Source of the DNA: Flavobacterium xueshanense
GTDB taxonomy: Bacteria > Bacteroidota > Bacteroidia > Flavobacteriales > Flavobacteriaceae
Assembly (NCBI RefSeq): GCF_900112975.1
Contig: NZ_FONQ01000007.1
Coordinates: 1 to 64,000, forward strand
Direction of reading: 5' to 3'
DNA length: 64,000 nucleotides
Shown piece after piece: positions 50,637-62,126 of the stretch. Positions within the stretch are counted from its first letter, which is position 1, and each line of letters starts with the position of its first letter. A program made the position numbers and the translations under genes. The notes beneath the pieces were generated by a model. It was given only the letters and a program-made list of their open reading frames with translations, was not told the origin of the DNA and searched no databases.

Positions 50637-53060
50637 TTAAATTGTGTTAAGTTCTTCCCGCAATTCGGTACAGGCTTGTAGGCAAACTTCTTCAAGTTGT
50701 AGCACTAATTCATGTATCTCTTTTGATTTTTCTGGTGCTGTGGCTAATTCCTGAATTTTTTTCGCCATGTTTTCAAAATTTGAACTAATTCCCATTATTG
50801 AAAAAGATGGTATCATTTTATGTGCAGAAGCGCCTAGCAATTGCCAATTTTGTTCCGCTAAACTTTGTTTCATTGTGCTTATTAATGAAGGTGTTTGTGC
50901 TAAATATAATGATATCATTTCCATCATTAATACTGGATTTGATTTTGTTCTTTGGTGTAAATATTCTAAATTAATACATTTTATATTTTCAACGATAGTA
51001 CTAATGCCTTCTTTTTTATCGAGTTTAGATTTTTTTAATGTTTCAATAATTTTTTTATATAATACTCTTTCATCGACTGGTTTAGCAATGTAATCATTCA
51101 TTCCCACGGCGATGCATTTAGCTACGTCAACTGTTGTAACATCAGCGGTTAATGCTATGATAGGAATTGTTGAATGCATCGTATTTCGTATATATTTTGT
51201 AGCTTCAAATCCATTCATTTCTGGCATTTGCAAATCCATGAGTACAATGCTATATTCTTTTTCTTTGAGTTTTTCTATCGCTATTTTACCATTTTCAGCA
51301 ATGTCAATTTCAAATCCAAAATCATCTATAAGTGTTTTCATAAGCAATTGGTTTAACGCAATATCTTCTACTACTAATACTTTTATATTTTTCATATCTG
51401 AATTTATTTCGACCAACTCATTTTCCAACTCTGCATTGGCATTTGTTTTTTGAAAAGCTAATGTAAAACTAAAAGTTGAACCTTGATCAATAGTACTATT
51501 TACCCGGATAGTACCACCTTGAGGCTCTATTAATTGCTTAACAATAGCGAGGCCTAGCCCAGTTCCGCCATACAATCTGGAAGTTCCGCTGGTTGCCTGT
51601 TGAAAATTTTCAAATATTGTTCCTATTTTTTCTTCGGAGATACCAATTCCTGTATCAATTACAGCAAATTCGAGTATCACTTTATCACTATCTTCATGCA
51701 GTAAAGCAACGCTTACAGTGATTTGTCCAATAGACGTAAATTTGATGGCATTACTAATTAAATTTAAAATGATTTGATGCAAACGGATAGGATCTCCCAC
51801 TAGTACTTCAGGGATTTTACTGTCGTATTCCTTTATTAGTTTTAAGTTTTTTTTCTGTATTTTTTTTTCAAACAAATGAATCATGGCTGAAATAGAAGAT
51901 TTCATCTTGAAAGGTGTTTTCTCAAATGTCATCTTACCTGCATCAACTTTTGCCAAATCGAGTATGTCGTTGATAAGTACAATTAATGCATCACCACTTA
52001 TCTTAATTGCGCTTAAATATTCTTTTTGTTTCTCTGTCAAAGATGTTCTAAGAATCACTTTTGTAAACCCGATAATTGCATTCATTGGTGTACGGATTTC
52101 GTGACTCATATTCGACAAGAATTGCTGTTTTGCTTTTACGGCATTTTCAGCTATGACAGTGGAATTTTGCGCATTTATTTTTGCTTCTTCTGCAATTTCT
52201 GTGGCTAATTCAGCAAAAAGTTTAGCTTCAATTAATTCTGTTTCAATTCTTTTTTGATTGGTCACATCTCTGGCAACCATTGCTGCTCCAAGCACATTCC
52301 TTTTATCATCTTTATATACTGCTCCATTGAATAATACATGAATTAATTTGCCGTTTTTATGGCGAAGGATTAATGGAGAATCGGCAACAAATCCTTTTTC
52401 AAACACTTTTTGATACACTTCTTGAGCCTTTTCCGGTTCAGTAAAATAATCAAAAAAATCAGTTCCAATTAATTTTGGACGTGCTATGCCAGTTACTTTT
52501 ACCGATGCATTATTCATATCGGTTATTTTCCCTTCAGGGCTAATTGCAAATAAAGGGTCATGACTTGCATTAATAAGACTAAGAGAATATTCAGAAAGCA
52601 ATTTTTGGGCTGTTAGATCAGTATTAAGTTTTTTCAGTTGTTCTGCCTGAACTAATAATTCCTGATTTTTTGTATGTAAATCTACAAAAACTGCCACTTT
52701 TGCTTTTAATATTTCAGGTGAAAGCGGTTTAATCATGTAATCTACTGCACCAGCCTGATAACCTTTGAAAATTTGCAGACAATTATCCATGTTGGCCGTT
52801 AAAAAAATAATCGGAACATGTTTCAGTTTATCGATTTGTCGAATTAACTCTACGGTTTCAAATCCATCCATCTTCGGCATTTGCACATCGATTAATATGA
52901 TGGCAAAATCTTGTTGGTGCAACAGAATTTTTAACGCTTCATTACCGGAATTTGCTTTGACACACAAATAATTTTCGTTAGAAAGTATTACTTCCAAGGA
53001 AAACAAATTTTCTGGTAAATCATCGACTAATAAAATTTTAACAGGGCTATTAATTTTCAT
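50637..53060 (-). CDS. Hybrid histidine kinase REC-PAS-HisKA-HATPase-REC-HPt
   Basis: A soluble multi-step phosphorelay protein of 807 residues. An N-terminal receiver (about 7-125, phospho-Asp58 in ILIDVQMPKMDG) is followed by a PAS domain (about 155-270). Next come the kinase core with His320 in FLSNMSHEIRTPMNAIIGF and an ATPase with GTGLGLAIVKQL. A second receiver (VLVVEDIALNQLLM, VLMDLQMPEMNGF) and a C-terminal HPt with AHKMIPSFSIMG end it. From the PAS domain on it is a close paralogue of the kinase at 58919. It follows the CHASE3 kinase gene on the same strand. Output is unknown. Confidence 0.92.
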   Translation of the reverse strand: MKINSPVKILLVDDLPENLFSLEVILSNENYLCVKANSGNEALKILLHQQDFAIILIDVQMPKMDGFETVELIRQIDKLKHVPIIFLTANMDNCLQIFKGYQAGAVDYMIKPLSPEILKAKVAVFVDLHTKNQELLVQAEQLKKLNTDLTAQKLLSEYSLSLINASHDPLFAISPEGKITDMNNASVKVTGIARPKLIGTDFFDYFTEPEKAQEVYQKVFEKGFVADSPLILRHKNGKLIHVLFNGAVYKDDKRNVLGAAMVARDVTNQKRIETELIEAKLFAELATEIAEEAKINAQNSTVIAENAVKAKQQFLSNMSHEIRTPMNAIIGFTKVILRTSLTEKQKEYLSAIKISGDALIVLINDILDLAKVDAGKMTFEKTPFKMKSSISAMIHLFEKKIQKKNLKLIKEYDSKIPEVLVGDPIRLHQIILNLISNAIKFTSIGQITVSVALLHEDSDKVILEFAVIDTGIGISEEKIGTIFENFQQATSGTSRLYGGTGLGLAIVKQLIEPQGGTIRVNSTIDQGSTFSFTLAFQKTNANAELENELVEINSDMKNIKVLVVEDIALNQLLMKTLIDDFGFEIDIAENGKIAIEKLKEKEYSIVLMDLQMPEMNGFEATKYIRNTMHSTIPIIALTADVTTVDVAKCIAVGMNDYIAKPVDERVLYKKIIETLKKSKLDKKEGISTIVENIKCINLEYLHQRTKSNPVLMMEMISLYLAQTPSLISTMKQSLAEQNWQLLGASAHKMIPSFSIMGISSNFENMAKKIQELATAPEKSKEIHELVLQLEEVCLQACTELREELNTI

Positions 53061-53179: not shown

Positions 53180-56100
53180 TTATTTACTTAACCATACGCG
53201 CATCAATGATAACAGGCGTTCTACATCAATAGGCTTAGTGATATAATCGTTGGCACCTCCATCAATACATTTTTGTTTATCATCTTTCATAGCTTTCGCG
53301 GTAAGGGCAATTATTGGTAAATTTCTGAATTTCATCTGAGATCTTATCCGTTTCATTGCTTCGTAACCGTCCATTTCCGGCATCATGATATCCATTAATA
53401 CGAGATCAATGTCAGGATGTACTTCCAGCATATTCAATGCATTCTTGCCGTCTTCTGATTTTATGACTTCCATTCCGCGTTCTTGCAATATTTTAGATAA
53501 AGCAAAAACATTTCGCATGTCATCATCAACCAATAATATTTTTTTTGAATGGAATATTGCTTCTTTATCATGCAAATTATTAATCATCATTTGTTTCGAT
53601 TTTGGTAAATTGCTAATCGTTCGGTGAAGAAAAAGAGCAGTTTCATCCAGCAATCGTTCTTCGGATTTTATACCTTTTATAATAATGCTCTCGGCATATT
53701 TGTGCAGCAGATTATTTTCCTCTTTTGTAAGTTCTTTTCCGGTATAAACAACAATAGGAGGTAGGTTATGGCCTTTTATATCCCCCAGTTTTTGGATAAG
53801 GTCAAAGCCAGTCATATCAGGTAATCCAATGTCCAGAATGATACAATCAATGTGATTGTGCTCAAACAATTCCAAAGCTTCTTTTCCTGTTCCTGCTTCA
53901 TAACATTTCACATCTCCATTGCCAATAAGTACTTTCATTGCTTTTCTGGAATTTTCACTATCCTCAATAATCAACAGGTTTTTTATCTTTTTATTTACAA
54001 AATTTTCAATCCTGATGAAAGCTTCCTCTAGACCATCTTTAGATATCGGTTTCATAAGGTATTCTACTGCACCTTCTCTGATTGGTTTTAGCGAACGATC
54101 ATTTGCCGATATAATATGCACCGGTATATGTCTTACCGAAGGATTTACTTTTAGTTCATGCAATACTTGTTCTCCGTTGATTCCTGGTAAACCCATATCG
54201 AGAATTATTGCTTGAGGTTTGTATTTTGCTGCAAGCAATAAACCATCTTCTCCGGAAGAAGCTGATAAGCATTTGAATCCTTTTTTGTTAGCTTGTTTTA
54301 AAAGTATCGCAGCAAAATTCCGGTCATCTTCAATGATCAGGACTATTTTATCATCAGTTTTTATCGCATCTCTATCGTCTTTTATAGTTGGATAATTGAG
54401 GAATCTGATATCACTTTCAGAACGTGGCGCAATGGAAACAGGTTTCAATGGGATTTCGATTTCAGACTCTTCTGCAGCATAAATTTCAAATGGAATTGTC
54501 AGCGAAAAAGTAGAGCCTTTTTCTAAATTACTTTTCACTTTTATTTCTCCTTTTAATAATTTTGCAAGTTCCCGTGAAATAGAAAGGCCTAATCCAGTTC
54601 CACCATATTTTCTGGAAGTACCGCCTTCAGCTTGCTGAAAAGCTTCAAAGATTGCTGCCTGCTTGTCTTCTGATATTCCAATTCCGGTATCAGTAACTGA
54701 AATACTCAAAGTATTTTCGGTTTTAGGTTCAAGATGAATAATTACGCTTCCATTTTCGGTGAACTTTACAGCATTGGATAAAAGATTTCTCAAGATTTGA
54801 TTCAGACGCTGAGAATCAGTGTAAATAAATTCGGGTAAATTATCTGGCTGCTCGCAAAGTATTTCCAATCCTTTTTGTTCTGCTTGATGCTTAAAATCGC
54901 GAAGAAGATTAGCTGTAAAATTTCTCAGCGCTACTTTTTCAATATTAACAGCCATTTTTCCAGCCTCAATCTTGGAGAGATCCAGCACTTCATTAATTAA
55001 GACCAAAAGATCATGACCACTTTTATAAATTATTTCCGCACTTTCAACCTGAACATCATCCAGGTTTTTCTTCCTGTTTTCTGATAAATCTTTGGATAGA
55101 ATAAGCAAACTATTAAGGGGCGTTCTTAGCTCATGGGACATGTTTGCGAGAAATTCTGATTTGTACTTGCTGCTAATCTCCAGTTGTTTTGTTTTTTGTT
55201 CAATATCATTTTTAGAAGCTTCAACTTCTTTATTTTTCTCCTCCAATGATTGGGTTTGCTCTTCCAGTTCTTCATTGGTCATTCGTAGTTCCCCTTGCTG
55301 TTGCTTAAGATTTTGCGCCTGTTGTTCTAATTCTTCATTCAGCTGTCTAAGCTCTTCCTGCTGTATTTGAAATTCTTCGGCTTGTTTAGCAAGTTCCTGC
55401 ATTTGATTTTTCGTATCAGTAATATCAAATCGAATTGAAACATATTTTTCTATTTTACCGTCTATTCCCTTAAATGGAGTAATTGTTGTATCAACCCAAT
55501 AAAATGTTCCGTCTTTTGCTTTATTTAATATTTCTCCCTTCCAGATTCTTCCGTTACTTATGGTTTTCCACATGGCAACATGTATCAAGTCTGGTTGTTT
55601 TTCTGATTTCAAAATTCTGTGATTTTTCCCCAATAACTCTTCTCTAGTATATTTGGCAATCTCGCAAAATTTATCATTGGCATATATGATATCACCATTT
55701 ACGTCAGCAATGGAAACAATAGCTGCCTGATTTAGGGAATTAATTTGCTGATCGAGTTCCAAAGCTGCTATTTCCATTTCACTTTTTTGTGATTGTACCA
55801 TAGCCAGTAACTCTTTCAACGATTGTTGATTTATAGCCGTATTTATTGAAACAGCAATACTGTCCATTGAAACATTAAGGAATTCTTTTTCTGTTTCGTT
55901 GAAATCAGTTAGTCTGCCTATTTCTATTACGCCCACTGTTTTACCTTCAAACAAAAAAGGAGTAATGAGTAAATTTTTTGGTTTTGCATCAAGAACCGAT
56001 GAAGTGATGCGTATTTGATCTTCAGATATATCTGTTAAAGAAATCTGTTTTTGCTCCCATGCAGCCTGACCAATTAATCCCTCATTTAATTTAAAACTTT

Positions 56101-56962
56101 CCATAATGTCTTTAGCAGATGAAAAAGCAAATTTTCCACTGAGCATCAGAGTATCGTTTTTTTCATTAAATAGGTAAACCGCTCCTATATTGGCTTTCAG
56201 ATACGTACATAAAAAACTTATGGTACTGTTTGCTAATTGTGCTGTGCTTTGGTCTCCTATTAATTTTTTATTAAGTTCGGAATTCCCTGTAAGCAACCAG
56301 TTTTTGCCTGCAGTTTCCAACTCAGAATTTTTAAGCGCTTTTAAATTTGTAGCAACAATGGCATATACGACAATAAGAATGATGACAATGATTATCAATA
56401 AAATAGCAAAAACAACATTAAACTTGCTTGCATCGTCTTGACTATTTTGAATTCTTTGACCAAGTAAAGTGCGTTCTAATTCCTGCGACTCATCAATTAT
56501 TTTTCTTATTTCTTCTTGAATTTGTTTTCCTTCACCTGAAGCAATTAATGCTCTTGCTTTTTCATAATTACCTTTGCGAAGGGTAATGCATGTGTTTAAA
56601 TTCTCAAACCGCATTTTTAGTTGTTTCGCAAGTTCCTCAATATTGATTTGCTGATTGGGATCGTCTTTTGTCAATTGCTTAACTTTTTCAAGTTTCTCAA
56701 TTGCTTTTGAATTGGCAGTTGTAAAATGTTTTAAAAAGTCATCATCGCCCGTAATAACATAACCTCGAACGCCTGTTTCTGCATCAACGGAAGACATCAG
56801 TATTTGTTCGAATTCATATAGTACCTGATTGGAATGGTTTACAAGAGTATTTGAAGCAACAAATTTTTCACTGTTTTTAAAAGAGAAAACTGCAACTCCT
56901 GAAAGTACTACCGCACAAGCAATAAATCCTATTACTATTTTTCTTCCTAAGGTCATTTTCAT
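53180..56962 (-). CDS. CHASE3-GAF-PAS hybrid histidine kinase with three receivers
   Basis: A 1260-residue membrane sensor. A first helix (VIGFIACAVVLSGVAVF) and a second (VVFAILLIIIVIILIVVYAI) flank a CHASE3 extracytoplasmic domain (about 30-180). It continues with GAF (about 235-380), PAS (about 405-520), a Gln/Glu-rich coiled coil (520-600), the kinase core with His610 in FLANMSHELRTPLNSL and an ATPase with GTGLGLSISREL. Three receivers follow, marked by ILDMGLPGING, ILDIGLPDMTG and LMDIMMPEMDG. This build is typical of kinases encoded with CheB/CheR. Here cheR is intact upstream and cheB is decayed. Confidence 0.93.
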   Translation of the reverse strand: MKMTLGRKIVIGFIACAVVLSGVAVFSFKNSEKFVASNTLVNHSNQVLYEFEQILMSSVDAETGVRGYVITGDDDFLKHFTTANSKAIEKLEKVKQLTKDDPNQQINIEELAKQLKMRFENLNTCITLRKGNYEKARALIASGEGKQIQEEIRKIIDESQELERTLLGQRIQNSQDDASKFNVVFAILLIIIVIILIVVYAIVATNLKALKNSELETAGKNWLLTGNSELNKKLIGDQSTAQLANSTISFLCTYLKANIGAVYLFNEKNDTLMLSGKFAFSSAKDIMESFKLNEGLIGQAAWEQKQISLTDISEDQIRITSSVLDAKPKNLLITPFLFEGKTVGVIEIGRLTDFNETEKEFLNVSMDSIAVSINTAINQQSLKELLAMVQSQKSEMEIAALELDQQINSLNQAAIVSIADVNGDIIYANDKFCEIAKYTREELLGKNHRILKSEKQPDLIHVAMWKTISNGRIWKGEILNKAKDGTFYWVDTTITPFKGIDGKIEKYVSIRFDITDTKNQMQELAKQAEEFQIQQEELRQLNEELEQQAQNLKQQQGELRMTNEELEEQTQSLEEKNKEVEASKNDIEQKTKQLEISSKYKSEFLANMSHELRTPLNSLLILSKDLSENRKKNLDDVQVESAEIIYKSGHDLLVLINEVLDLSKIEAGKMAVNIEKVALRNFTANLLRDFKHQAEQKGLEILCEQPDNLPEFIYTDSQRLNQILRNLLSNAVKFTENGSVIIHLEPKTENTLSISVTDTGIGISEDKQAAIFEAFQQAEGGTSRKYGGTGLGLSISRELAKLLKGEIKVKSNLEKGSTFSLTIPFEIYAAEESEIEIPLKPVSIAPRSESDIRFLNYPTIKDDRDAIKTDDKIVLIIEDDRNFAAILLKQANKKGFKCLSASSGEDGLLLAAKYKPQAIILDMGLPGINGEQVLHELKVNPSVRHIPVHIISANDRSLKPIREGAVEYLMKPISKDGLEEAFIRIENFVNKKIKNLLIIEDSENSRKAMKVLIGNGDVKCYEAGTGKEALELFEHNHIDCIILDIGLPDMTGFDLIQKLGDIKGHNLPPIVVYTGKELTKEENNLLHKYAESIIIKGIKSEERLLDETALFLHRTISNLPKSKQMMINNLHDKEAIFHSKKILLVDDDMRNVFALSKILQERGMEVIKSEDGKNALNMLEVHPDIDLVLMDIMMPEMDGYEAMKRIRSQMKFRNLPIIALTAKAMKDDKQKCIDGGANDYITKPIDVERLLSLMRVWLSK

Positions 56963-56998
56963 TTTATTTATTTGTAAAATTGATGGCGATTATCTCTT

Positions 56999-57560
56999 TT
57001 AATGATTTATTTTTATTAATAACGCGACTTTCTCCTCCAATGATAAAAAGTAATTGGGTTTAATAGCCACAATTGCTGACTTTGGCATATAATTAGATTT
57101 TATGGTTTTTAAATCTTTTACAATGGACCGATCGCCGCATTCCTTTATTCTTTTAATTCCTTGGCTACCGCCACTAATAGATCCTGTAAGCACAATTTCA
57201 ATTAATTTATTTTTACAGGCTTCCGCCGCCTCTTCAAACAGTTAATTAATGGATGGTTTTACAAAATTTACACGTTAATCTTTAGTAAGGAAAAAAGTGT
57301 TATCCTTTTCAATCAGCAAATGATCGTTAAGAGTAGCAATATAAGTGTTTCCTTTTTCAATTTTCTCTTTTTATCTGCTTCTTTTAAATTAAGTTGATTT
57401 ATTTACTTAAAAGTTTTATCGAGTGATTAAAAGAATGAGCGCATAAATGCTGCGCAATGACAATTAGAGTATTAAAATCTGCCGGTTATGCTGCGGATAT
57501 AATTTTCAAAGTATTCATGCCTTGGTAAGAAACTCCTAATACAATTGCTTCATATTGCAT
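56999..57560 (-). pseudogene. Decayed CheB-type methylesterase gene
   Basis: The minus strand begins MQYEAIVLGVSYQGMNTLKI two bases after the cheR stop and continues with PADFNTLIVIAQHLCAHS, KGNTYIATLNDHLLIEKDNT, NKLIEIVLTGSISGGSQGIK and YMPKSAIVAIKPNYFLSLEE, the order of a CheB methylesterase domain. The frame is broken by several stops (first at 57486-57488) and at least one shift. The active-site serine motif GxSxGG has become GVSYQG. An intact tail frame of 64 codons survives at 56999-57193. It lies between cheR and the CHASE3 kinase, exactly where a working cheB would be. Confidence 0.8.
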
Positions 57561-57562
57561 TA

Positions 57563-58387
57563 TCAATATTTCTTTTTAAATATTCGTTCTTTTGTGTCTA
57601 ACTCAATATATTGCTCATATAAATCAGAAAAACGTAAGTTTTCTTGAGAGCCCAAACATAGTACACCACCATTTATTAAACTATCGTAAAAAAGATTTTG
57701 GACTTTATTTTGTAAATTTTTATCAAAATAAATCAGCACATTGCGACACAATATTAAGTTCACTTCCGCGAAAACACTATCAGTTACCAAATTATGATTG
57801 GCCCAAACAATATTTTTTTTTAAGGAATAATTCATTATGAAATTATCACAATCGGAAGTATAATAACTCGAAAACGATTCTTTTCCTCCGGTCAATTGAT
57901 AATTAGAAGTATACCCTTTTATCAATTTGTTCGAAAAAATTCCATCTTTTGCTCGGTTCAGAGCCATTTGATTAAAATCAGTAGCATAAATAGTTGTTCT
58001 GTCGTACAAGCCTTCTTCCTGCAAAAGAATAGCCATTGAGTAGGCTTCTTCTCCCGTTGCACAACCTGCATGCCATATTTTTATAAAAGGATATGTCTTT
58101 AAAATAGGGATAACATTTTCTCGTAATGACTTGTAGAAAACAGGGTCACGAAACATTTCGGTTACAGTTATTGACAAATCCTGTAAAAGTGCAGAAGCAA
58201 ATATTTTATCATTCAAAACCTTAGATTTCATTTCAGAAATATCTTCAAATTTTGATACTGCCATTCTGTTCATAATCCTGCGCCTGATATGACCTTGGGA
58301 ATACTCTCTGAAATCGTAACCGTATTCGTGATAGATTGCTTCTAACAACAATAAAATTTCCGAATCTGATGTTTCTTGATACTGCAT
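57563..58387 (-). CDS. CheR-type protein-glutamate O-methyltransferase
   Basis: Methylates glutamates, classically on chemoreceptors, using S-adenosylmethionine. The 274 residues have the N-terminal helical domain with YGYDFREYSQGHIRRRIMNR and LQDLSITVTEMFRDP. The methyltransferase domain follows with IKIWHAGCATGEEAYSMAIL and LILCRNVLIYFDKNLQNKVQ. No chemoreceptors are in the window, so it probably belongs to the CheR/CheB/hybrid-kinase sensor type rather than chemotaxis. Its partner cheB is decayed immediately downstream. Confidence 0.92.
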   Translation of the reverse strand: MQYQETSDSEILLLLEAIYHEYGYDFREYSQGHIRRRIMNRMAVSKFEDISEMKSKVLNDKIFASALLQDLSITVTEMFRDPVFYKSLRENVIPILKTYPFIKIWHAGCATGEEAYSMAILLQEEGLYDRTTIYATDFNQMALNRAKDGIFSNKLIKGYTSNYQLTGGKESFSSYYTSDCDNFIMNYSLKKNIVWANHNLVTDSVFAEVNLILCRNVLIYFDKNLQNKVQNLFYDSLINGGVLCLGSQENLRFSDLYEQYIELDTKERIFKKKY

Positions 58388-58481
58388 TTTAAAACAATTT
58401 TGGTTTTAATATTTAACCAAATCAGGTATAATTTATCCAACTCATAAATTAAATTTTATAAAAATTACATTGAAAAATGGA

Positions 58482-58919
58482 TTACATACGATCCATATAC
58501 CAATTTAATTCTTTTTCCATTTTTTGATATTTAAAAATAGCTGTAATTATTTTTTGCAGACGAACAAAAGCAGTCTCACTTTTTACCACATAATCAAATG
58601 CTTTGTGGTGCATACAGTTTACAGCCACTTCAATTTTATCTTGAGAAGACAGCATTACAACTGGAATTTCTGAATTGTAAGCCTTTACTTTATCTAAAGT
58701 TTCAAGACCGTTCATGGCGTTTTCTATAATACCGTCTAATTGATAATCTAATATCACCACATCCGGACTGCTAGATAAATTAGATATACAGAGCTCTCCC
58801 GTAGAATAAGTTTCTACTATAAAATCAGCATTTTCTAAGAATTCAATTTCTAACGATTTTAAAAATAATGCATCATCATCTACAAGAAATATTTTTACTT
58901 TATCATTGTTATTATTCAT
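58482..58919 (-). CDS. Single-domain response regulator
   Basis: A 145-residue lone receiver domain without an output domain. FLVDDDALFLKSLEIEFLEN gives the acidic pocket, VVILDYQLDG the phospho-Asp, MLSSQ the conserved Ser/Thr position and DYVVKSETAFVRL the Lys. It overlaps the start region of its own operon partner: its ATG overlaps the kinase stop by one base, showing tight coupling with the hybrid kinase upstream. Likely a phosphate shuttle between kinases. Confidence 0.9.
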   Translation of the reverse strand: MNNNNDKVKIFLVDDDALFLKSLEIEFLENADFIVETYSTGELCISNLSSSPDVVILDYQLDGIIENAMNGLETLDKVKAYNSEIPVVMLSSQDKIEVAVNCMHHKAFDYVVKSETAFVRLQKIITAIFKYQKMEKELNWYMDRM

Positions 58920-61519
58920 TAAAGAGTATTTTTAATTATGTTTAATTCTTCTTGTAATTCAATACATGCTTGCAAACAAATTTTTTCTAATTCTAGCACC
59001 AAAGTACCAATTCCATCTGTTTTTTGTTCTACTATTGCGAAATCTTGGATTTTTTTTGCCATGTTTTCAAAATCAACACTCATCCCCATGATTGCAAATG
59101 ATGGAATCATTTTATGTGCTGCTGCTCCTAATAAAGTCCAATTTTTTTCTGCTAAACTTTGTTTAATAGTATGTATCAAAGGAGGCGTTTGTTCTAAATA
59201 AAGAGATATCATCTCCATCATTAGTGTAGGATTCGATTTTGTTCTTTCGTTTAAATATACTAAGTCAATATATTTTATTTTTTTTGCTATAGTCACTTCC
59301 TCTTCTTTTAGTGTTTCTTTAAGTTTGGCAAGTTTTGGCTTTTTTAAGAGGCCTATAATTTTACTGTATAATATTTTTTCGTCAACAGGTTTTGCAATAT
59401 AATCGTTCATCCCCACAACTTTGCATTTAGCCAAATCGACTGTGGTCACATCAGCAGTTAAAGCAATGATTGGTACTTTTGAATTCATTGTGTTGCGAAT
59501 GTATTCTGTAGCTTCAAATCCATTCATTTCTGGCATTTGTAAGTCCATTAAAATGATATCATAAACGTCTGCTTTTAGTTTTTCGATCGCTACTTTACCA
59601 TTTTCGGCAATGTCCCAAATAAATCCAAAATCATCTAACAATGTTTTCATTAACAATTGATTCAAAGGAATATCTTCAACTACTAGAACTTTTATATTTT
59701 TTAATTTTGTATCCAGTTCGACGTCCTCATTTCCCAGTTCAGCATCAGAACTTGTTTTTTGAAAACTTAAAGTAAAACTAAATGTAGAACCAATATCAAT
59801 TGTGCTTTTTACACGAATGGTTCCACCTTGCTGTTCTATAAGTTGCTTAACTATCGCTAAACCTAATCCTGTCCCTCCATAAAGTCTTGAAGTTCCGCTA
59901 GAAGCTTGTTGAAAATTTTCAAATATTTTACCTATTTTATTTTCAGCAACTCCAATTCCATCATCAGTTATGGCAAATTCAATAATCGCTTTATCATCAT
60001 CTTCATGTATCAAATTTACACTTACGGTAATGTTTCCTTTGGATGTGAATTTAATGGCATTACTAACCAAATTTAAAATGATTTGGTGCAAACGAACCGA
60101 ATCGCCCAGAAGTACAGCAGGAATTTTATTGTCGTATTCTTTAACTAATTTTAAGTTTTTTTCCTGTATTTTGGTTTCAAATAAGTGAAGCATTGAAAAT
60201 ACAGAAGTTTTCATTTTGAAAGGAGTTTTTTCAAAGGTCATCTTTCCGGAATCTACTTTTGCTAAGTCCAAAATATCGTTTATGAGAACGATTAGTGCAT
60301 CACCACTCATTTTGATAGCATCTAAATATTCTTTTTGTTTAGAGCTCAATTCTGTTTTTAGTACCACTTTTGTAAAACCTATGATCGCATTCATCGGCGT
60401 ACGAATTTCATGGCTCATATTCGACAAAAATTGTTGCTTCGCTTTTACTGCATTTTCAGCTATAATGGTAGCACTTTCGGCGCTTTTTTTTGCTTCTTCA
60501 GCGATTTCTGTAGCTAATTCGGCAAAAACACGCGCCTCAATCAGTTCGGTAGCAATTCTCTTTTGTTCCGTCACATCTCGAGCAACAATTACAACACCAA
60601 TAACATTTCCTCTATAATCTTTATAAACGGAACCGTTGAATAAGACATCGGTTAATTTCCCGTCTTTATGACGAATGGTTAACGGAGAATCAGCAACAGA
60701 TCCTTTTTCGAAAACTTCTTGATATACTTCTCTTGCTTGTTGCTGCTGCGTAAAATAATCAAAAAAATCAGAGTCAGTAAGTTCCTCTCTTGTCATACCT
60801 GTGATATTTACCAATGCTTCGTTCATATCGGTAATTTTTCCTTTGGTATTTATCGTAACCAGTGGATCTTGGCTTGCTTCAATCAGACTCAGGGAATATT
60901 GAGAAGCTAATTTTGCAGAATTATTAATTTCTGTTAGTTCTTTATTTACAATTTCCCTTTTTTTGTTTTCTTTATTTTGAAATAGTAATTCTTCATTAGC
61001 AATCACTAACTCAGCAGCACGTTTTTCTTTTTCCTCGTTTTGATATGCCAATTCTTTGTTGGCAATCACTAGTTCCGCTGCGCGCTTTTCTTTTACTTTA
61101 TTTTGATGCGCGAGTTCTTTATTTGCGATTTTTAAATCCAATGCCCATTTTTGTTCGGCTATATTTCGAGATACTACAATCACTCCTGATGGATTTCCTT
61201 GATCATCTCTAAAAACAGTTCCGTTGAACAGTATATTTGTCAGTTTACCCTTTTTGTGATGTAGTGTGAGAGTGGAATCAACGACGAATCCATTGGTAAA
61301 GGCTTCTTGAAAAATATCCTTTGCTTTTTGGGGTTCGGTAAAATAATCAAAATAGTCAGTGCCAATCAAGCTGTCACGACTAATACCCGTTATATTTACT
61401 GTTGCCTCATTTACGTCCGTGATTTTCCCCGCAATATCAATTGAGATTGTAGGGTCTAAAATGGCTTCAATTAGACTTCTTGCATATTTTGATATTTGAT
61501 TATTTATGATTTCTATTTT
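58919..61519 (-). CDS. Hybrid histidine kinase PAS-coil-PAS-HisKA-HATPase-REC-HPt, start unclear
   Basis: A phosphorelay kinase paralogous to the one at 50637. Counting from the TTG at 61369 it has 816 residues, but 50 further in-frame codons up to the stop at 61520 complete the first PAS domain (ILDPTISIDIAGKITDVNEA), so the real protein is longer; no ATG, GTG or TTG is available at its head. A coiled coil follows with a 19-residue unit repeated about three times (ANKELAYQNEEKEKRAAEL). Then come a second PAS, His320 in FLSNMSHEIRTPMNAIIGF, an ATPase with GTGLGLAIVKQL, a receiver (ILMDLQMPEMNG) and an HPt (AHKMIPSFAIMG). It may have lost its original N-terminus or start codon. Confidence 0.85.
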   Translation of the reverse strand, partial: KIEIINNQISKYARSLIEAILDPTISIDIAGKITDVNEATVNITGISRDSLIGTDYFDYFTEPQKAKDIFQEAFTNGFVVDSTLTLHHKKGKLTNILFNGTVFRDDQGNPSGVIVVSRNIAEQKWALDLKIANKELAHQNKVKEKRAAELVIANKELAYQNEEKEKRAAELVIANEELLFQNKENKKREIVNKELTEINNSAKLASQYSLSLIEASQDPLVTINTKGKITDMNEALVNITGMTREELTDSDFFDYFTQQQQAREVYQEVFEKGSVADSPLTIRHKDGKLTDVLFNGSVYKDYRGNVIGVVIVARDVTEQKRIATELIEARVFAELATEIAEEAKKSAESATIIAENAVKAKQQFLSNMSHEIRTPMNAIIGFTKVVLKTELSSKQKEYLDAIKMSGDALIVLINDILDLAKVDSGKMTFEKTPFKMKTSVFSMLHLFETKIQEKNLKLVKEYDNKIPAVLLGDSVRLHQIILNLVSNAIKFTSKGNITVSVNLIHEDDDKAIIEFAITDDGIGVAENKIGKIFENFQQASSGTSRLYGGTGLGLAIVKQLIEQQGGTIRVKSTIDIGSTFSFTLSFQKTSSDAELGNEDVELDTKLKNIKVLVVEDIPLNQLLMKTLLDDFGFIWDIAENGKVAIEKLKADVYDIILMDLQMPEMNGFEATEYIRNTMNSKVPIIALTADVTTVDLAKCKVVGMNDYIAKPVDEKILYSKIIGLLKKPKLAKLKETLKEEEVTIAKKIKYIDLVYLNERTKSNPTLMMEMISLYLEQTPPLIHTIKQSLAEKNWTLLGAAAHKMIPSFAIMGMSVDFENMAKKIQDFAIVEQKTDGIGTLVLELEKICLQACIELQEELNIIKNTL

Positions 61520-61556
61520 TTATTAAATTTTTTGAAAAAATTGATTTAATTATATT

Positions 61557-62126
61557 TTATTGTTTGCCAATTTCCTCAATTGGGTTGCGCCTTTTGTCTT
61601 TTAATTGTTTAAAATGAGAAGGGGAAAGACCAGTCACTTTTTTAAATTGACTGGATAAATGAGCAACGCTGCTGTAGTTCATTTTCCAGGCAATTTCCGT
61701 GATATTTAATTCTCCGTAAATGATCAACTCTTTTATACGTTCTGTTTTATGGGAAATTATAAATTGTTCGATTGTAGTGCCTTGCACTTCCGAAAATAAG
61801 TTAGACAAGTAGGTGTAATCATGATCTAATTGTTGACTCAAATAATCTGAAAAATTAATTTTAATGGGTTCGACCGTATGGTGCACCATTTGTATAATCA
61901 CATTTTTAATTTTTTCGATTAGCATCGATTTTTTATCATCCATTAATTCAAGTCCTGAATCTAAAAGGGCCACTTTCAGGAGTTGTCTTTGATCCATAGA
62001 AATATTTTCCATGATTTCGACCTCTCCTAATTCAACAACCATAAAGTGAAGTTTAAGCTTTTTCAACTCTTCTTTGACCGCCATTTTACAGCGATTACTT
62101 ACCATGTATTTTATGTACAGTTTCAA
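61557..62126 (-). CDS. Small AraC family transcriptional regulator
   Basis: A 189-residue regulator. The C-terminal half is the AraC DNA-binding domain: DYLSQQLDHDYTYLSNLFSE, GTTIEQFIISHKTERIKELI and NITEIAWKMNYSSVAHLSSQ with FKKVTGLSPSHFKQLK. The N-terminal 80 residues (CKMAVKEELKKLKLHFMVVE, ELMDDKKSMLIEKIKNVIIQ) are of a type I recall from many flavobacterial genomes, of unknown ligand. It lies just upstream of the hybrid kinase gene on the same strand. It is the only DNA-binding regulator inside the stress block, so it is a candidate for the activator acting at the shared promoter element; this is inference. Confidence 0.9.
   Translation of the reverse strand: MKLYIKYMVSNRCKMAVKEELKKLKLHFMVVELGEVEIMENISMDQRQLLKVALLDSGLELMDDKKSMLIEKIKNVIIQMVHHTVEPIKINFSDYLSQQLDHDYTYLSNLFSEVQGTTIEQFIISHKTERIKELIIYGELNITEIAWKMNYSSVAHLSSQFKKVTGLSPSHFKQLKDKRRNPIEEIGKQ

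Follow-up and report, generated by a model that had tools for sequence, protein, structure and literature searches.

A cheB pseudogene beside open cheR and hybrid kinase genes in Flavobacterium xueshanense

The cheR-kinase block and its cheB remnant

The window, i. e. the whole stretch of 64,000 nucleotides of F. xueshanense DNA that was analysed (contig NZ_FONQ01000007.1, positions 1 to 64,000), contains a block of signalling genes in the order AraC-type gene, PAS kinase, response regulator, cheR, cheB, CHASE3 kinase and PAS kinase (Table 1). By synteny with Flavobacterium relatives, this is a CheR-CheB-hybrid-kinase operon, but a functional cheB between cheR and the kinase is missing. The two Pfam domains of CheR (PF01739 and PF03705, E 7.6e-39 and 2.2e-9) lie in a single open frame and the motifs of the protein align with the solved CheR structures 5ftw, 1bc5 and 1af7; the product is a predicted glutamate methyltransferase. 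The kinase of 1260 residues is made up of CHASE3, GAF and PAS domains, a Glu/Gln-rich coil, HisKA and HATPase domains and three receiver domains. As stated in a preliminary description of the locus, both cheR and this kinase are open over their full length: Not a single lesion was found in their 1534 codons. For the upstream PAS kinase, the in-frame homology to F. yafengii (L037) extends past the TTG at 61369 to about 61459, and a usual start codon was not seen there (region 61369-61560).

Table 1. Position of the genes of the block and of the cheB remnant in the window.
Feature	Position	Strand	Description
AraC-type gene	61557..62126	minus	189 aa as listed; putative AraC-type helix-turn-helix-like C-terminus, assigned by eye; syntenic in relatives
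Upstream PAS hybrid kinase	58919..61369	minus	816 aa as listed, from TTG
Single-domain response regulator	58482..58919	minus	145 aa
cheR	57563..58387	minus	274 aa, open; CheR_N and CheR SAM-binding domains
cheB pseudogene	56990..57560	minus	Four in-frame TAA and two single-base deletions; Ser codon kept, Asp replaced by Gly
Hybrid kinase	53180..56962	minus	1260 aa, open; N-terminal half mosaic
Downstream receiver-PAS hybrid kinase	50637..53060	minus	807 aa

The cheB-like sequence opens with an ATG at 57560, two bases past the end of cheR on the minus strand. The coordinates proposed earlier for the remnant, 56999-57560, are right: they run from this ATG to the last base of the TAA at codon 188, the final in-frame stop, whereas the stop position of the relatives corresponds to 56990. 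A Pfam profile search matched PF01339 (CheB_methylest) to the remnant in two frames with stops inside, far above chance (57032-57385, E 1.5e-21, and 57336-57545, E 4.3e-4). Comparison with the intact cheB genes of relatives in a codon alignment of 190 codons bore out the idea of a pseudogene that has acquired several stops but kept its similarity: TAA codons are present at codons 25, 96, 107 and 188 (first bases 57488, 57277, 57244 and 57001), and single bases have been deleted at codons 53 and 64 (near 57402 and 57371). The TAA at codon 188 may be harmless on its own since it is very near the end of the gene, and the open cheB of the relative L043 stops at about the same place. Apart from its lesions, the length of the remnant is preserved: 604 bases separate the last CheR codon from the kinase start, as compared to 602-607 in the 14 Flavobacterium loci L036-L049.

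The CheB domain is thus not covered by a single open frame, and the catalytic residues are incomplete as well. The triad is formed by residues which we take to be S164, H190 and D286 in the numbering of chain 1a2o, with residue 11 of the CheB of a relative aligned to residue 164. The serine motif had been described as lost; its neighbouring residues have indeed changed (GVSYQG instead of GVSSGG in the relatives), but the codon for the catalytic serine itself is kept. The codon for the histidine is also retained, and it is the aspartate of the LTGSNSDG motif that has been replaced by glycine. In our view, cheB of the window is a genuine pseudogene, confined to this lineage, of a CheB methylesterase encoded by a separate gene, and the module has been without a CheB of its own for the time that it took six lesions to appear.

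The lesions are known from one assembly of 33 contigs, and errors of sequencing or assembly would be one way to explain them. This is very unlikely: four TAA codons, two deletions, the lost aspartate and a four- to six-fold rise of dN/dS (see below) coincide in one gene while its neighbours are clean, and the genome is listed as 100% complete and 0.16% contaminated. If the six lesions were scattered randomly across cheB and cheR, the probability that all of them hit cheB would be 0.005, and 2e-6 with the kinase included; the corresponding values for five lesions in cheB are 0.011 and 2e-5. A promoter pattern of the Bacteroidetes type does not occur in 56900-58450, and a new promoter inside the remnant is thus not indicated by this pattern; it occurs 4 times in the window as compared to 7.7 expected occurrences. 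The repeats that were found, namely two short families of two copies each and four inverted pairs with imperfect arms, are probably due to chance.

Conservation of cheB next to this cheR

A scan of genome contigs with CheR gave 164 loci, and the best 80 of these were inspected. In 77 of them, a stop-free cheB match adjoins cheR (the copy in L086 is cut by the contig end). Among the remaining three, the contig of L060 ends just past cheR, whereas L096 and L103, from metagenome-assembled genomes of Calditrichaceae and Nitrospinia, respectively, encode CheR proteins that are 59-60% identical and have no CheB match next to them. Their genomes carry CheB elsewhere (1 and 14 matches), and in contrast to the window no cheB remnant was noticed at these two loci, for which open frames only were listed. 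High identities were also found outside the Flavobacterium loci: CheR proteins 73-77% identical to that of the window are encoded next to a cheB in L058, L063, L071 and L072, from genomes named Paludibacter, Chitinophaga and Chryseolinea. Since this identity is high for such a distance, the module has perhaps spread horizontally to these genomes.

The same picture emerged within the genus. Of 398 Flavobacterium genomes, an even sample of a larger group, 17 (that of F. xueshanense among them) carry this cheR with an E-value of 1e-95 or lower, and all 16 others possess a stop-free adjacent cheB (these overlap with the 80 loci). CheB matches as such were obtained in at least 176 of the 398 genomes, among the matches listed best first. 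The CheR of the window is 80-89% identical to that of the Flavobacterium loci L036-L050. The gene order of the window is found in F. limicola (L036), F. yafengii and F. sinopsychrotolerans (L038), and of the 14 loci L036-L049, 12 contain the whole block. L048 is cut by a contig end, and in L042 the AraC-type gene and the response regulator are not separated by the upstream PAS kinase. In all 14 of these loci cheB is open, whereas it is broken in the window. In F. ranwuense (L042), two copies of the response regulator lie around the block (L042:17905-18342 and L042:9458-9895) and the kinase is absent from the upstream site, as if the pair had been moved or duplicated.

Selection on cheB and on its neighbours

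Ratios of dN/dS (omega) were estimated with our own two-ratio model, in which background branches are scaled, rather than with PAML, using codon alignments of the window and up to 14 relatives with the window branch as foreground. For the upstream kinase, the sequences of L042 and L048 are paralogous and were left out, as was the L042 sequence of the response regulator, which may be a paralogue. The results were alike with or without these rows, and the single-gene tests of cheB, cheR and the kinase on gene trees are independent of them. Synonymous distances on the window branch differ from gene to gene (about 0.2 to 0.9), a hint of recombination; each of the following omega values is therefore approximate.

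A comparison of dN/dS, which the preliminary description had proposed for cheR and the kinase, separates the three genes: on the window branch, omega is 0.40-0.54 for cheB, about 0.09 for cheR and about 0.15 for the kinase. For cheB, this is a four- to six-fold rise over a background of 0.09 (2dlnL 30-37), with values of 0.397 on the window branch and 0.089 on the rest of the gene tree (2dlnL 30.1) and 0.538 on the corrected concatenated tree (2dlnL 36.9). An omega of 1 was rejected on the gene tree (2dlnL 11.1) but not on the corrected concatenated tree (3.6). When each of the 15 taxa was taken as foreground, the window alone rose significantly for cheB and likewise for cheR, with L048 being uninformative for cheR due to a zero synonymous branch. 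Assuming that cheB evolved at the background rate before its loss and neutrally thereafter, arithmetic from the omega estimates gives a neutral phase of about 0.34-0.48 of the window branch; the likelihood profile of omega, about 0.24 to 0.67, corresponds to about 0.17 to 0.63. Over perhaps a third to one half of this branch, then, cheB has been nearly free of constraint.

CheR is mildly relaxed on the window branch and mostly still constrained. Its omega was 0.095 on the window branch versus 0.044 on the rest of the gene tree (2dlnL 8.0) and 0.091 on the corrected concatenated tree (2dlnL 5.9); across the trees, it rose from 0.044-0.046 to 0.09-0.095 (2dlnL 5.3-8.0). Moreover, CheR carries 12 changes at sites that are invariant in the other 14 taxa, as compared to 0-8 for each of those. 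For the whole kinase, omega was 0.150 versus 0.077 on the gene tree (2dlnL 27.0) and 0.164 on the corrected concatenated tree (26.2), with 2dlnL values of 24-27 across the trees and of 32 with L043 left out.

It is tempting to attribute the acceleration of the kinase to the loss of cheB, but we have set this idea aside for three reasons. First, with the kinase as the test gene, the window and L043 both rise as foreground, and cheB is open in L043. Second, the kinase is a mosaic: residues 1-210 are nearest to L038 (91%) and residues 211-400 to L043 (84%), and a stretch just before the coil is common only to the window and L043 among the 16 relatives aligned. Finally, the individual segments gave 2dlnL values of 3.3, 2.1, 5.5 and 0.1 on their own trees. 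Some signal speaks against this decision, i. e. that of residues 1-400 on one tree (2dlnL 15.8) and, on the whole-kinase tree, that of the GAF part (14.6) and the coil (6.0). Across the 17 aligned kinases, the Glu/Gln-rich coil that precedes HisKA hardly varies, and no compensatory changes from Glu to Gln were seen in the window as compared to the 16 relatives. The window has Phe at position 531 (Leu in 16/16 relatives), Gly at 557 (Glu in 15 of 16, Ala in L043) and Arg, shared with L048, at 560; these changes are too few to interpret.

The relaxation of CheR could represent slow decay. It had been suggested that the module may be in the first stage of decay. In this scenario, cheB was lost first, and CheR and the kinase, intact only through delay, would follow; the doubled omega of CheR and the overall value of the kinase (0.15 versus 0.08) would fit such a scenario, as would the losses of CheB-CheR fusions described below. 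However, cheR and the kinase do not share the fate of cheB: Fixing omega on the window branch at the 0.397 of cheB costs cheR 33 and the kinase 63 units of 2dlnL, and since both genes reject this value and are free of lesions, the decay of cheB is not joint with that of its neighbours. The rise of the kinase, as discussed, is common to L043 and largely an effect of the mosaic, and its receiver part has stayed at background (0.054 versus 0.048). So have the response regulator (0.041 versus 0.035, 2dlnL 0.1, paralogous row excluded) and the AraC-type gene (0.022 versus 0.022 on the gene tree, 2dlnL 0.0), and on gene trees also the upstream kinase (0.061 versus 0.056, 2dlnL 0.2, paralogous rows excluded) and the downstream kinase (0.090 versus 0.086, 2dlnL 0.1; 0.128 versus 0.083 on the corrected concatenated tree, 2dlnL 3.9). 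A gene for a protein of 225 aa had an omega of 0.061 versus 0.082 on the gene tree (2dlnL 0.6) and was below background on the corrected concatenated tree (0.030 versus 0.083, 2dlnL 7.2). The remaining genes were at background on the latter tree. The case for decay of the whole module is weakened by these results, and we regard it as distinctly unlikely.

Methylation after the loss of the local CheB

No match to methyl-accepting chemotaxis proteins (MCP, PF00015) or CheW (PF01584), two components of the MCP-CheW-CheA chemotaxis pathway, was found in the genome of F. xueshanense. The substrate of CheR is therefore probably not a chemoreceptor. In the intact module, the methyl groups that CheR would add and CheB remove would sit on glutamate residues of a signalling protein. 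Their most likely place is the coil or the signal helices of the adjacent kinase, as suggested by the lack of MCP and CheW matches and by the position in the operon; the coil before HisKA would be a reasonable place for methylation. CheB-CheR fusion kinases, which lie beside or apart from the block in genomes of the genus, resemble the module of the window in that they combine CheB and CheR with a coil and a kinase without an MCP, but they do so in one chain rather than in separate genes.

Such a fusion is also the only other source of CheB in F. xueshanense: Exactly one further CheB match was found (G000:C15:28369-28884), in a fusion (L130:4211-6286; called C15 fusion here) with an open frame of 691 aa from a TTG. 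The preliminary description had considered that another CheB may be in use, and the C15 domain might indeed remove the methyl groups set by CheR, making the local cheB redundant and the two loci complementary. The CheB motifs of the fusion (GASAGG, QH and SSDG) are intact, whereas in its CheR part, which is 27.5% identical to the CheR of the window, the CRN motif reads GSN and PGG is altered. However, out of 16 relatives with a further CheB match free of stops, 15 have retained the local cheB; replacement in trans is therefore not the rule. Moreover, the C15 fusion aligns to residues 1-662 of the orthologue of 1107 aa in L134, so that the coil-PAS-kinase end (about 445 aa) is gone, and the following gene begins about 1.3 kb sooner than in L134, as calculated by subtraction. 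Its CheB domain is itself accelerated on the branch of this genome (0.158 versus 0.051, 2dlnL 10.5), and the CheR part shows no significant rise (0.086 versus 0.054, 2dlnL 1.9). As a control, the CheR part of L134 was also raised (0.164 versus 0.054, 2dlnL 4.8), and such shifts are therefore not rare here. Finally, stops and frameshifts interrupt the orthologous fusion in the relatives L131 and L132, and in a third one, L133, it is either broken or truncated. Rescue in trans by C15 is thus doubtful, even if slightly more probable than decay of the whole module. In L132, the kinase next to the broken fusion is also split into several frames.

In 10 of the 16 relatives, a second CheB-CheR fusion is encoded by the same strand at a distance of about 7 kb from cheB; it has no match in the F. 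xueshanense genome. When two of these fusions (their first 921 and 754 aa) were compared with the window, only cheR, the cheB remnant and the kinases matched, and a remnant of the linked fusion was not seen in the window. The losses of fusions in the relatives and in this genome indicate that CheB and CheB-CheR genes turn over in the clade. F. xueshanense is at the poor end of this clade, with no open stand-alone CheB and one truncated fusion.

That cheB is a pseudogene and that CheR and the kinase have been retained is, in our opinion, nearly certain. It is also likely that a broken and nearly freely evolving cheB lies beside open, mostly constrained cheR and kinase genes with CheR still active. 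With the local eraser gone, CheR would still write and the methylation of the kinase would be set high; it may be reset only through turnover and growth or, at a slow rate, through the single remaining CheB domain, and CheR would now be under somewhat weaker selection. Given the pseudogene and the retained genes, the chances are about even that methylation proceeds without an eraser or nearly so; rescue by the distant CheB is rather improbable, and so, to the same degree, is the possibility that CheR has been kept for another reason or has not yet been lost. Only tentatively do we propose that a selected CheR sets a one-way glutamate mark on the hybrid kinase that is cleared only via growth and turnover or, alternatively, that reciprocal decay has produced a split pair, with CheR from one locus and CheB from a half-decayed fusion at another.

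CheR and CheB are usually regarded as a pair. In a literature search at the level of listings, no paper dealt with a kinase operon that has lost cheB and retained cheR, which is weak evidence of absence. The cheB deletion strains of E. coli (PMC12270135), in which the methyltransferase acts on chemoreceptors, resemble the window in that the methyltransferase is kept and the methylesterase is absent; the genome of F. xueshanense, in contrast, has no MCP match. In that study, E. coli without CheB is described as having excess receptor methylation and hyperactivity, and strains that lacked both cheR and cheB spread slightly better than strains that lacked one of the two. On this account, the loss of CheB should favour the loss of CheR, and nonetheless CheR has been kept in the window.

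The loss of cheB removes the local half of a two-way control. In itself, it is ordinary gene decay, and its moderate interest comes from the surviving writer: The local eraser was lost some time ago and the writer is mostly constrained, i. e. the writer has outlived its local eraser. With sister species that have an open cheB available for comparison, the locus offers a natural experiment on whether methylation of the CheR type, when it is not part of chemotaxis, has to be reversible.
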